Below, one piece after another: positions 59,639 through 64,000 of a stretch of DNA of 64,000 nucleotides. The stretch spans positions 1,674,001 through 1,738,000 of the forward strand of contig CP034120.1 in NCBI GenBank assembly GCA_003856375.1, given 5' to 3'. Numbering within the stretch: position 1 is the stretch's first letter; each line of letters starts with the position of its first letter. Source of the DNA: Glaciecola amylolytica. Lineage in GTDB: Bacteria > Bacteroidota > Bacteroidia > Flavobacteriales_D > Crocinitomicaceae. The position numbers were made by a program, and so were the translations under genes. The notes under the pieces were generated by a model. It was not told where the DNA came from, ran no database searches, and saw only the letters and a list, made by a program, of their open reading frames with translations.

Positions 59639-61048
59639 TCATTTGACGACTTTGATCGTTTGTACTTTACCGCCATTTGCGGCGATTTGTACAAAATAAA
59701 TTCCTGCAGGAAGTGATTCAAGGTTTTGAAATTTGATCACAGCATGTTTCTTGATTAAAGGATCTGTAATCCGGGTTGCAATGGTTTGTCCCACAGCATC
59801 TGTCAGCGTAAACTGGATTTCATGATCTGAAGAAACATTCTCATACGAAATGCTCAATTCATTTGTAAAGGGAACCGGAGCAACCTGAAAATTTCCTGTT
59901 TGATTCTCTTCCAAAGATGCTGTGTGATTCTCAACATAAGTCCGCAGCAATTCGCGCACAACCGGAAGTAAGGCCCAGGAATTTTTATTGTTGTCGTTGG
60001 TGAAAACAGTGATACTTTGATCGAGAACAGGGAAATACCAGGACGATGCGTGGTAGGCAAGATCTCCGCCATGACCATAAGCTTCATATCCTAAAAAATG
60101 AGTTTGATTTTTCATTAAACCGAGTCCGTATTTTCCTCCTTGCGCTGCCGGAGCAAATACGGTTGTTTTGGCTTCAGCCATCATTGCTGTCGAGAGCAGA
60201 TCGCCGCGCATATAAGTCCGCATCCATTTGGTGCAATCAGTCGGAGTGGAAAAGTATCCTCCTGCCGCACCTGCTGTTGAATTCAGCGATAAGTAATTCA
60301 TGTAGAAACTGTCTGCATCATCTAAAACACCGTCGCCGGTAATATCCAGCCACAAATGTGCAACGGGAGAGTTCAGTGTTTCAAATGCCGGAATGGCGAA
60401 CGAATTCAACTGCAACGGATCAAAGAACCTGTTTCGCAATTCGGTGTAGAATGGATTTCCGGTTGCTTCCCGGATGATCATACTCAACAGGAAATAGTTG
60501 GTATTGGAATAAGACCAGGAAGTGCCGGGTGGAAATAATGGCGGCGAAATAAAGCGGTCGATCAATTCTTCCGGCGTCCAGATCCTTGAAATGTCTGCCA
60601 GAAGAGAATCCTGATTATGCGGGTGACTCAACACATCGTAGATTCCGCTGGTGTGATTCAATAATTGCCGGATAGTAATCGTGGAATCGATATACGGAAT
60701 TATTGGAAGCCATTCATGTAAGCTGTCATCCAGATTTAGGAGTCCTTCATCTGCAAGCTGTAAAATGCATGCTGATGTGATGGTTTTAGTGACACTTCCA
60801 ATCAGATAAGCGTCATTTGGAGTGACGTTTTCAGCAGGAAACACAGAAGAAATTCCGGTTGAATGAGCCCAGATACTGCCGTCTGATGTTTGGATTGCCG
60901 CACTTAGGGATTTGGCTCCGAGAACAGTTCGCATGCTGTCCAGGGTATGTTGTAATTCCGTATCTAATCCTGCTGAGATTTGAGCATTTGCCTTGCTTGT
61001 ACTCATGAGCAGGTAAAGACTTAAACCGATGGTGTAGAATCTGTTCAT
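59639..61048 (-). CDS. Secreted serine hydrolase (beta-lactamase class C fold) with T9SS tail
   Basis: A 469-residue protein with signal peptide MNRFYTIGLSLYLLMSTSKANAQ. The serine beta-lactamase/DD-peptidase fold has SxxK in IGSVTKTITSACI, YxN in WSYSNTNYFLLSMI and the third motif as HGG in EAYGHGGDLAYHA. The acyl-enzyme centre is thus complete. The last ~80 residues (VAPVPFTNELSISYENVSSDHEIQFTLTDAVGQTIATRI...LPAGIYFVQIAANGGKVQTIKVVK) are a type A T9SS sorting domain. Substrate could be a D-peptide or an ester; true beta-lactamase action is not implied. It is divergent from the sigma factor gene, 139 nt away. Confidence 0.88.
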   Translation of the reverse strand: MNRFYTIGLSLYLLMSTSKANAQISAGLDTELQHTLDSMRTVLGAKSLSAAIQTSDGSIWAHSTGISSVFPAENVTPNDAYLIGSVTKTITSACILQLADEGLLNLDDSLHEWLPIIPYIDSTITIRQLLNHTSGIYDVLSHPHNQDSLLADISRIWTPEELIDRFISPPLFPPGTSWSYSNTNYFLLSMIIREATGNPFYTELRNRFFDPLQLNSFAIPAFETLNSPVAHLWLDITGDGVLDDADSFYMNYLSLNSTAGAAGGYFSTPTDCTKWMRTYMRGDLLSTAMMAEAKTTVFAPAAQGGKYGLGLMKNQTHFLGYEAYGHGGDLAYHASSWYFPVLDQSITVFTNDNNKNSWALLPVVRELLRTYVENHTASLEENQTGNFQVAPVPFTNELSISYENVSSDHEIQFTLTDAVGQTIATRITDPLIKKHAVIKFQNLESLPAGIYFVQIAANGGKVQTIKVVK

Positions 61049-61187
61049 AAATCTGTTTTTAAGTTCATGAACTAAAGCTACTTTGATCCGATCTGACTCA
61101 TTTGTCTAAACCTGCTAATTTGGATTTACAAAAAAAATCACGATCCAATAGGGGTGAAGTGATTCTCAGTTGTCCTAAAACCAAAAG

Positions 61188-61784
61188 ATGATAACTTTAC
61201 CCTTGTCAAAATATGCCAGGGTGGAAGAAAAACAAGTGATAACACAAGTTGTGACAGGAGATTTAAGCACATTTGAAATGGTATTTCGCGATTATTATAA
61301 GCCGCTGGTTCGCTACGGCAACACATTTCTGAAAGATTCAGATGAGACGGAGGACGTTGTTCAGCAGGTATTCGTTACTCTTTGGGAAAAACGAACCCAA
61401 CTCGATATTCATACCTCCATTCGGGCGGTTTTGTATAAGTCTGTTCAGAATGCCTGTTTGAATAAGCTCAAGCATCTGAAAGTGCGCAATGTTTACGCCG
61501 AAGATTGGAAAGCGTCAACTGTTCACGAAGACACTTCTGATTCGGTTGTGGTGAATGAACTCAATGAACGGATTCAACTGGCGGTGGAAAATATGCCTGA
61601 ACAATGCGGACGTATTTTTAAAATGAGCCGTTTTGAACAACTGCGTTATCAGGAAATTGCCGATCAATTAGGTTTATCGGTAAAAACGGTAGAAAATCAA
61701 ATGGGGAAAGCCCTCAAAATTGTGCGTGAAGAGTTGAAAGACTATTTGCCCTTGCTCATCCTTTTTTTTAGTCAGATACTATGA
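61188..61784 (+). CDS. ECF sigma factor, FecI-like
   Basis: A 198-residue sigma factor. Region 2 is STFEMVFRDYYKPLVRYGNTFLKDSDETEDVVQQVFVTLWEKR, the bacteroidotal FecI/RpoE7-like pattern. Region 4 is MPEQCGRIFKMSRFEQLRYQEIADQLGLSVKTVENQMGKALKIVREEL. The 20 residues before VVTGDLSTFEMVF are unusual, so a later start (GTG 61221) is possible. The gene overlaps the FecR gene by 4 nt (ATGA), and FecR overlaps the STN-domain gene by 4 nt. The product would direct polymerase to target genes when released by FecR. Confidence 0.9.
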   Translation: MITLPLSKYARVEEKQVITQVVTGDLSTFEMVFRDYYKPLVRYGNTFLKDSDETEDVVQQVFVTLWEKRTQLDIHTSIRAVLYKSVQNACLNKLKHLKVRNVYAEDWKASTVHEDTSDSVVVNELNERIQLAVENMPEQCGRIFKMSRFEQLRYQEIADQLGLSVKTVENQMGKALKIVREELKDYLPLLILFFSQIL

Positions 61785-62731
61785 AAACATTACACGACAT
61801 GGATGCGCTGATTGGCAAATTCCTTACCGGCGAAGCAAACCCTGAAGAAGCAATGTTCCTGGAGGACTGGATTGCTGAATCAAATGACAATAAAACGTAT
61901 TTCGAACAAAGCGCAAAAGCGTTCGGTTTGGTAGATCAAGCGGTTTCGACAGATGCTGCCTGGACGAAGGTTCAATCACAACTGAAACAAGCTCCGGTTC
62001 GAAAATTGAGTATCGGATGGATTTCTTCGGTGGCGGCAATTCTGATCATTTCTTTTGGTGCTGTTCTCTATTTTCTGAATTCAGATGGAGAAAAGAAGGT
62101 TTTTACTGCCGGAAAAGAAAAAAAGAACATTGAATTGAACGACGGAACCGACATTCAACTGGCAGCGCATTCGAGTGTGGAGCTGTCGGCAGGTTACGGA
62201 AAGAAAAACCGTTCGTTGACATTGAAAGGTTCAGGCCATTTCTCGGTAAAACACAGCGAAAAACTGCCGTTTATCATTGATGCCGGACCGATTCATATCA
62301 AGGATCTCGGAACGAAATTCGATGTGAAGACAACCGAGGATACGATTTATGTCCGCGTTGAAGAAGGAATCGTAGTGATCTACGACAACAAAGGAATGAA
62401 ACTCACGCTTCATGCAAATGAAAGTGCTCATTACGTGATTTCCAGCGGAGATCTGAAATTGGATGTGCTGGCAGAGAATCTGAAAAAGCAGTATAAAACA
62501 ATTCTGCTGGATAACCAGCGATTAGAAGACGTGGTTGAGTTGCTCAACAAAACCTATAAGGTAAATATTCGAATTGATAATCCGGTGCTGAAGGATTGCA
62601 GGATTACGACTGAGTTTTTGAATGAAGATCTGGATACTGTTTTAATGGTAATCTCTCAAACACTTGAAGTAACCATAATCAAGGAAAAGACAAATGTTTA
62701 TGTGATTAAAGGATTGGCATGTATACAATGA
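61781..62731 (+). CDS. FecR-type anti-sigma factor
   Basis: A 316-residue membrane protein. A cytoplasmic sigma-binding part (residues 1-83; IGKFLTGEANPEEAMFLEDWIAES) is followed by one membrane helix (SSVAAILIISFGAVLYFL). The FecR domain (KKNIELNDGTDIQLAAHSSVELSAGYGKKNRSLTLKGSGHFSVKHSEKLPFIIDAGPIHIKDLGTKFDVK) is next, then a C-terminal DUF4974/secretin-like domain (LLDNQRLEDVVELLNKTYKVNIRIDNPVLKDCRITTEFLNEDLDTVLMVISQTLEVTI). FecR relays a signal across the inner membrane to its sigma factor. The stop overlaps the next ATG (ATGA). Confidence 0.93.
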   Translation: MKTLHDMDALIGKFLTGEANPEEAMFLEDWIAESNDNKTYFEQSAKAFGLVDQAVSTDAAWTKVQSQLKQAPVRKLSIGWISSVAAILIISFGAVLYFLNSDGEKKVFTAGKEKKNIELNDGTDIQLAAHSSVELSAGYGKKNRSLTLKGSGHFSVKHSEKLPFIIDAGPIHIKDLGTKFDVKTTEDTIYVRVEEGIVVIYDNKGMKLTLHANESAHYVISSGDLKLDVLAENLKKQYKTILLDNQRLEDVVELLNKTYKVNIRIDNPVLKDCRITTEFLNEDLDTVLMVISQTLEVTIIKEKTNVYVIKGLACIQ

Positions 62732-64000
62732 TCCGTTTTTTAAGTGTGTTTTTTCTTTGCTGCGTTGCTGTTTCTTATTCCAGCGCGCAAACTCCTTATT
62801 TGGAGAAAGGGGTCACGATCCGATCCGGAAACTATTCATACGAAGAATTGTTTAAGCAAATCTCCAATCAAACCGGAGTAGTGTTCTCGTATACAGCTTT
62901 TGATGATAAACAACGCGCGTCGGTAAAGTTTGACAAACAACCGCTCCGAATTGTTTTGAATACGCTTTTCGATAATGGAAATTGTACGTGGAAACTGAAA
63001 GGAAAATATGTTATTGTTAATTGTAAATCAGTGACAAAACCAAAGCCGGATAATTCTTCGGCAAACAAGTCCAATGTTATTTTGAACGGGTACATTTTGA
63101 ATGCGGAAGATTCGACAGAAGTAGTTGAATCCAGTGTTTATCTTCGGCAAAACAAACAGTCGGCTCTCACTGACGAATACGGTTATTTCAATATGTCGTT
63201 TCCGAAAACGGCTGATGTGCTGTCAATTTCTGTGGCAAAAGAAGATTTTAAAGACACTACGGTGGTGATATTCTCTCAGCAGCGAAATACGCTAGTCATT
63301 TATCTGCAGCCTAAATCAGCTCCGGTGAGTGTCATGATGAATGATTCCATCCGTGTAACTCTTTCAATCGACTCCATAAAACAACCATTGGAAACACAGG
63401 TCAAAGACACGACACCATATGTAAGTCCGTTTTGGAGAAGATTCGGAAAACACCGCGCCAATTTGAGAAACATTTCCGACACTTTGTTTACAAATGTTGC
63501 GTTTTCATTTGTTCCGCCTTTAAGTACCAACCGCTTGCTTTCCGTGAATACGGTGAACCGGTTTTCATTCAATATTCTGGTCGGTTCATCCAAAGGGATT
63601 AATGGTTTTGAATTGGGTGGTTTGGTCAATCTCGATTACGGAAACGTGCAATACGTGCAGATCGCCGGTTTGGTGAACCTGGTTTCAGGAACATCAACCG
63701 GAGTGCAGGTGGCAGGCTTGGTCAATACGGTTGGAGAAGATGTGGACGGAGTTCAGGTTGCCGGCTTGGTGAATCTCGACCGTGGGAAAGTAACGCGTTT
63801 TCAGGCTGCGGGAATTGCCAATTTGGTAAAAGATACCGTTATTGCCGTTCAGATCGGTGGAATTGCGAATTTGAATCATTCCTATACCAAAGGAGTTCAG
63901 ATAGCAGGAATTTATAATCAGGCAAAAAATGTGCTTGGGGGTCAGTTTGCCGGAATTGCGAATGTGGGTGATACCATTTATGGAAGTCAGATCTCCGGAT
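62728..64000 (+). CDS. STN-domain protein with carboxypeptidase-regulatory-like domain and LVN surface repeats, 3' end outside window
   Basis: 424 residues visible. Signal peptide MIRFLSVFFLCCVAVSYSSAQ. An STN (secretin/TonB N-terminal) domain spans about residues 37-99 (SYEELFKQISNQTGVVFSYTAFDDKQRASVKFDKQPLRIVLNTLF). A CarboxypepD_reg-like beta domain spans about 117-190 (NGYILNAEDSTEVVESSVYLRQNKQSALTDEYGYFNMSF). From residue ~290 tandem ~20-residue units of the form (V/I)QxAGLVNxxxG repeat (ELGGLVNLDYGN, QIAGLVNLVSGT, QVAGLVNTVGED, QVAGLVNLDRGK, QAAGIANLVKDT...), like the LA_2272-type surface repeats. In SusC/FecA-type receptors an STN domain precedes a TonB plug and barrel; no plug is seen here, as the repeats follow directly. 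ATG 62728 overlaps the FecR stop; ATG 62719 is an alternative. Confidence 0.85.
   Translation, partial: MIRFLSVFFLCCVAVSYSSAQTPYLEKGVTIRSGNYSYEELFKQISNQTGVVFSYTAFDDKQRASVKFDKQPLRIVLNTLFDNGNCTWKLKGKYVIVNCKSVTKPKPDNSSANKSNVILNGYILNAEDSTEVVESSVYLRQNKQSALTDEYGYFNMSFPKTADVLSISVAKEDFKDTTVVIFSQQRNTLVIYLQPKSAPVSVMMNDSIRVTLSIDSIKQPLETQVKDTTPYVSPFWRRFGKHRANLRNISDTLFTNVAFSFVPPLSTNRLLSVNTVNRFSFNILVGSSKGINGFELGGLVNLDYGNVQYVQIAGLVNLVSGTSTGVQVAGLVNTVGEDVDGVQVAGLVNLDRGKVTRFQAAGIANLVKDTVIAVQIGGIANLNHSYTKGVQIAGIYNQAKNVLGGQFAGIANVGDTIYGSQISG

Follow-up and report, generated by a model that had tools for sequence, protein, structure and literature searches.

The sigma-FecR-sensor operon

The window, by which the whole stretch of 64,000 nucleotides analysed here is meant (G000:C1:1674001-1738000), belongs to a complete genome of 4.6 Mb and closes with three genes on the plus strand, which encode a FecI-like ECF sigma factor, a FecR anti-sigma factor and an exported repeat protein, called the sensor below (Table 1). 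Because the window ends inside the third of these, the locus was extended with a further stretch of the same genome (L002, positions 1732001-1750000), in which the sensor gene reaches the equivalent of window position 64608, 608 bases past the window, and specifies a product of 626 residues. The ATGA overlap that the initial annotation had read at both junctions is present, at 61781 for the sigma stop codon and the FecR ATG and at 62728 for the FecR stop codon and the sensor ATG, and the start of the sensor gene in the list of open reading frames (62719) lies 9 nt upstream of the latter. The sensor gene is followed downstream by an operon encoding a DUF2807 protein and a TonB receptor that lacks an STN domain.

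Table 1. Positions of the genes, domains and promoter-like motifs at the locus (window coordinates unless prefixed with L002)
Feature	Position	Strand	Basis or remark
Promoter-like motif TAGGGGTGAAGTGATTCTCAGTTGTC (TAGGGGT-N14-YTGTC), upstream of the sigma operon	61149..61174	+	Conserved in relatives
ECF sigma factor, FecI-like, TIGR02985 Sig70_bacteroi1	61221..61784	+	NCBIfam 4.6e-51; probable GTG start, open reading frame opens at ATG 61188
FecR anti-sigma factor	61781..62731	+	Pfam FecR 5.9e-15, FecR_C 2.3e-13; hydropathy
Sensor gene, codons 1-424 of 626 in the window	62728..64000	+	Whole gene L002:4728-6608
STN domain, residues ~32-107, after the signal peptide	62821..63048	+	Pfam STN, residues 58-97
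CarboxypepD_reg-like domain, residues ~116-197	63073..63318	+	Pfam CarbopepD_reg_2
QxAGLxN repeats, first part	63595..64000	+	Run on to residue ~465 outside the window
Second copy of TAGGGGT-N14-YTGTC, upstream of the DUF2807 gene	L002:6864-6889		Outside the window

The reading of the first two products as a FecI-like sigma factor and a FecR is confirmed by their profile matches, those to FecR and FecR_C lying above the cut-off. The FecR consists of a cytoplasmic N-terminal part, one transmembrane segment (residues ~78-99, from hydropathy), the FecR domain and the FecR_C domain, and the locus thus has the arrangement of a FecI/FecR system, in which an ECF sigma factor adjoins a FecR with a single transmembrane segment. 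Of five close relatives, at least three (L062, L063, L064) have the ATG of 61188 in a frame other than that of sigma, and in L065 the frame from the equivalent position meets a stop as well, while a GTG at 61221, in frame with sigma, is conserved in close relatives. Since the frame from the GTG is conserved and that from the ATG is not, translation probably starts at GTG 61221 and the ATG is a doubtful start. The stretch between 61188 and 61221 (ATGATAACTTT), which lies shortly after the motif, is conserved within the genus yet mostly out of frame with sigma, and for this reason it is probably non-coding, acting as a leader RNA or a transcription-start element.

Two neighbouring features can be recorded here. 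An inverted repeat between the sensor and DUF2807 genes (L002:6645-6797; 46 nt, 83% complementary) has G/C-rich arms of the CCCCCTCCAAAGGGGG type standing 61 nt apart, and possibly represents a terminator, or else a dispersed palindromic element. On the other side of the operon, the divergent neighbour (59639-61048, minus strand) encodes a protein of the serine beta-lactamase family (Pfam, 5.9e-51), the C-terminus of which bears a sorting domain for Por secretion (type IX).

Domain content of the sensor

In its textbook form, FecR surface signalling is a by-product of transport, in that the receptor importing a nutrient also reports it, and STN domains are normally the means by which a TonB-dependent receptor signals to FecR. 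The sensor of the present locus is built differently, comprising from the N- to the C-terminus a signal peptide, an STN domain, a CarboxypepD_reg-like domain, a linker, 9 or 10 repeats and a domain of ~150 residues that weakly resembles outer-membrane barrels. The STN domain, called initially from the single sequence, stands at the level of the family, where 26 of 41 aligned full-length members match it (best E 7e-12), and is weak in the protein itself, which scores E 0.0021 and stays under the Pfam cut-off; the STN domain of a FecI/FecR partner is thus found for the family and sub-threshold for the single protein. The structure of the PupA signalling domain (2a02) aligns with positions 32-107 of the family profile at a weak E of 0.71, and the region has a beta-alpha-beta / alpha-beta-beta pattern in a predicted model of low confidence. 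The CarboxypepD_reg-like domain, likewise proposed at the outset, is borne out by matches to CarbopepD_reg_2 in 41/41 family members (E 0.0013 for the sensor alone), and its region also matches a domain structure of a SusC homologue, 9hfj, at E 4.4e-07.

The initial annotation had further stated that neither a plug nor a barrel is visible. For the plug and the TonB-type barrel this extends to all 626 residues, as Pfam Plug and TonB_dep_Rec were not matched at E<=0.01 in the sensor or in 40 relatives; for barrels in general it has to be amended, since a small barrel-like domain is probably present at the C-terminus. The continuation past position 64000 and the profile searches of the completed protein thus brought to light no later plug or TonB barrel, and the STN assignment withstood the searches of the family. 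The plug and 22-strand barrel of a TonB-dependent receptor being missing from the sensor, and Plug and TonB barrel being unmatched in all 41 members, the sensor is, as judged by its domain content, not a TonB-dependent transducer. A TolA or TonB C-terminal Pfam domain was not matched in the sensor family either. TIGR04056 (SusC/RagA) is matched by 2 of the 41 members (best E 4e-9), a match assumed to fall on the N-terminal STN/CarboxypepD part.

When genomes of the phylum were searched with the family profile, STN-less repeat proteins were returned (profile positions 240-619), together with the N-termini of frames of ~900-1250 residues (positions 5-200, E about 1e-30). Two of these long frames were checked, and both encode SusC-type transducers that combine STN, CarboxypepD, Plug and TonB barrel and lie beside FecR and sigma. 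Because positions 5-200 of the profile match the N-termini of SusC-type transducers, the STN-CarboxypepD part is a module common to receptors and the repeat-protein sensor.

The repeats, of the type "QxAGLxN", were said initially to begin near residue 290, and they do extend from residue ~290 as far as ~465, recurring every 15-16 residues, the spacing over 41 proteins being 16 in 211 cases and 15 in 47. They resemble the NCBIfam LA_2272_repeat, which the sensor matches at E 0.033 (14 bits, where the cut-off is 25) and which 29/41 members match at E<=0.01, the best at 2.4e-15. The C-terminal ~150 residues that follow give weak matches to OMP_b-brl and other outer-membrane barrel families; OMP_b-brl was reached at E<0.1 in 7 of the 22 C-terminal domains tested, and for the sensor of the window no match lies above the cut-off. 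The profile of this domain gave chance matches only against solved structures. The C-terminal residue is F in 29/41 members, and this terminal aromatic residue, together with the weak barrel matches, supports the view that the small barrel-like domain probably anchors the sensor in the outer membrane. AlphaFold models of the window fragment and of the L003 protein are poor (mean pLDDT 39 and 46), and a fold search of the PDB with the better of the two returned nothing (best E 0.53); models of this quality speak neither for nor against the beta-solenoid fold suggested initially as a possibility for the repeats.

Gene order, receptors and a promoter-like motif among relatives

The order sigma-FecR-sensor is conserved across many families of the class Bacteroidia: it is kept in 39 of the 40 relatives fetched with flanks and in all 5 further loci, i.e., in 44/45, the exception being L097, in which the sensor is retained with no sigma or FecR nearby. 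Stand-alone STN-less repeat paralogues, in contrast, have sigma/FecR nearby in 0 of 10 loci (Fisher p = 4e-10, calculated over loci that share ancestry and were gathered by similarity). The association with sigma/FecR depends on the STN domain. These data also bear on a reading in which the STN domain is misassigned and the third gene, a chance neighbour transcribed along with sigma/FecR, encodes a surface protein unrelated to them. The sub-threshold score of the sensor taken alone would agree with that; however, the recurrence of the domain in 26/41 relatives, the disappearance of the sigma/FecR association exactly where STN is lost, and the occurrence of the same STN-CarboxypepD pair in SusC-type transducers make it highly improbable.

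Within the window genome there is a single FecR, and the sole other credible STN domain belongs to a protein that, by sequence reading, is secretin-like and whose gene adjoins that of a type II/IV-type ATPase; no classical STN receptor able to serve the FecR was found in the complete genome. With one FecR and no classical STN receptor, the repeat protein is therefore the natural partner.

A TonB receptor is nevertheless present in the system after all, STN-less, encoded downstream behind the same promoter-like motif. Receptors of this one clade (E<1e-15) are found in 29/40 loci, with no receptor nearby in the other 11, and the 15 receptors that were examined contain CarboxypepD in 15, a plug in 14 and STN in none. 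A DUF2807 protein is encoded on the same strand in 27/40 loci (hand count), and 12/40 also contain a sensor paralogue that is shorter and STN-less. Stand-alone genes of the latter kind are exemplified by L003:5911-7071, L109:5851-7077, L110:5908-7173 and L112:5896-7095, and at three of these four (L109, L110, L112) the paralogue adjoins a receptor of the same clade. At L077:7938-10288, the receptor gene is split into two overlapping frames, possibly by a frameshift or an assembly error.

Comparison of upstream regions within the window genome yielded the motif TAGGGGT-N14-YTGTC, of which the entire genome has two exact copies, both at this locus, before sigma and before DUF2807. In the 40 other loci, 55 exact copies occur, distributed over 29 loci, where 0.15 would be expected from Markov sequences, and spacers of 8 to 20 other than 14 give none or one copy each. 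The motif precedes sigma, DUF2807, receptor and STN-less paralogue genes in the relatives. It also stands 21-33 nt before an STN-less paralogue or DUF2807 gene in loci without sigma/FecR (L003, L109, L110, L112, L115), the distance to the start codon being 21-27 nt for the stand-alone paralogues at the first four, and because it does so where no sigma/FecR is encoded, these genes are probably targets in trans. Within the genus, an exact copy is found in 10/10 genomes with the module versus 0/4 without it, and in the sampled family in 23/29 versus 12/121, the presence of the module having been tallied by hand for each genome. We infer that TAGGGGT-N14-YTGTC is the promoter of this sigma factor. 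That the motif might be general to all Bacteroidota FecI factors was also considered; it is missing from both of the SusC-type FecI loci that were inspected, which makes this less likely. Two genomes of genus g14 (G061, G072) have several exact copies with no full-length sensor listed, perhaps owing to a different sigma factor that recognises promoters of this type.

The recurrence of the receptor allows for a reading in which the repeat protein serves as an adaptor, relaying to FecR the state of the adjacent, ligand-binding STN-less TonB receptor, so that a FecA-like function is spread over two proteins. The presence of the receptor clade at 29/40 loci, the retention of the plug without STN, the pairing of an STN-less paralogue with the same receptor in the absence of sigma/FecR (L109, L110, L112), and the promoter motif common to all these genes are in line with such an adaptor. 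Yet 11/40 loci have no receptor nearby, and the linkage can be explained by co-regulation, for which no physical contact is needed, so that the adaptor reading is possible, albeit doubtful. Similarly tentative is a division of the FecA task in which the STN-bearing repeat/barrel protein would sense and signal to FecR, the separate STN-less TonB receptor would transport, and the STN-less copies of the sensor would be co-regulated partners of the receptor.

A putative signalling model and its relation to known systems

The reading preferred here, and considered likely, is that of FecI/FecR cell-surface signalling with a non-transporter sensor, which would drive its own operon, the DUF2807 and TonB receptor genes and the STN-less paralogues. 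The suggestion of the initial annotation, that a repeat protein and not a transporter serves as the sensor of a surface-signalling system, is supported by the lack of a plug and by the conserved, STN-dependent gene order. For the trio of sigma, FecR and sensor we infer a signalling route in which the exported sensor would be anchored in the outer membrane via its small C-terminal barrel-like domain, with its STN domain placed in the periplasm, where it would hold the C-terminal domain of FecR. A condition registered by the repeat/barrel part would alter the STN-FecR contact, following which FecR would be processed by proteases and sigma released. The latter would then transcribe from TAGGGGT-N14-YTGTC its own operon and that of DUF2807 and the STN-less TonB receptor, and in many relatives STN-less sensor paralogues as well. 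In Fox signalling, FecR is shielded by the STN domain up to the arrival of the signal (PMC11637429), and this protective logic would fit the present locus, with the repeat protein replacing the receptor.

It has to be noted that the same work on P. aeruginosa Fox, in which the anti-sigma factor is protected by the STN domain on its own when there is no signal (PMC11637429), lends itself to another reading as well. The repeat protein would then be an adhesin or a structural component of the surface, its STN domain would do no more than hold FecR inactive, and the signal would act directly on FecR. However, many families have kept the repeats and the barrel part together with STN, and the putative regulon includes STN-less paralogues, which suggests that the repeats take part in the sensing itself and renders this reading unlikely.

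With the FecIRA/FpvA/FoxA-type systems of Proteobacteria and the SusC-type STN transducers of Bacteroidota, the proposed system has in common an ECF sigma factor, a FecR with FecR_C and an adjacent, exported partner bearing STN, and the STN-CarboxypepD module occurs in SusC-type transducers and the repeat-protein sensor alike. It differs from the FecA/SusC type in that the place of the plug and 22-strand barrel is taken in the partner by an array of repeats together with a small barrel-like domain, and in that the TonB receptor of the regulon is devoid of STN. As a precedent for a sensor that is not a receptor, VreA of the PUMA3 system (VreA-VreI-VreR) of P. aeruginosa comes closest; it combines STN with a TolA/TonB-like C-terminal domain and is mainly periplasmic and mostly soluble (PMC2729926). 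As with VreA, surface signalling would here proceed through an STN protein without a beta-barrel receptor; unlike VreA, the sensor lacks the TolA-like domain, its C-terminal part being made up of repeats and the barrel-like domain, and the gene order of the VreA system differs from that of the trio, with no repeats or CarboxypepD domain described for VreA. Short repeats of a similar kind are also found in the LA_2272 and VC2662 surface repeat proteins (NF047436 and NF047437, matched by 29/41 and 14/41 members), families which, however, are defined without STN or a linkage to FecI/FecR.

A literature search for this architecture, and for DUF2807 together with anti-sigma factors, found no description, although proteins of this general type are named, without being explained, in the annotation column of a gene table. 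The sensor lacks the defining features of both the TonB-dependent transducers and VreA, and the system would represent FecI/FecR signalling in a form of its own. Through the trio, the cell seems to sense something outside without transporting it, and the module spans many families of Bacteroidia, its defined motif and small regulon making it directly testable. It thereby offers a first functional context for the unexplained repeat proteins of the LVN/LA_2272 type and for the DUF2807 proteins of these bacteria.
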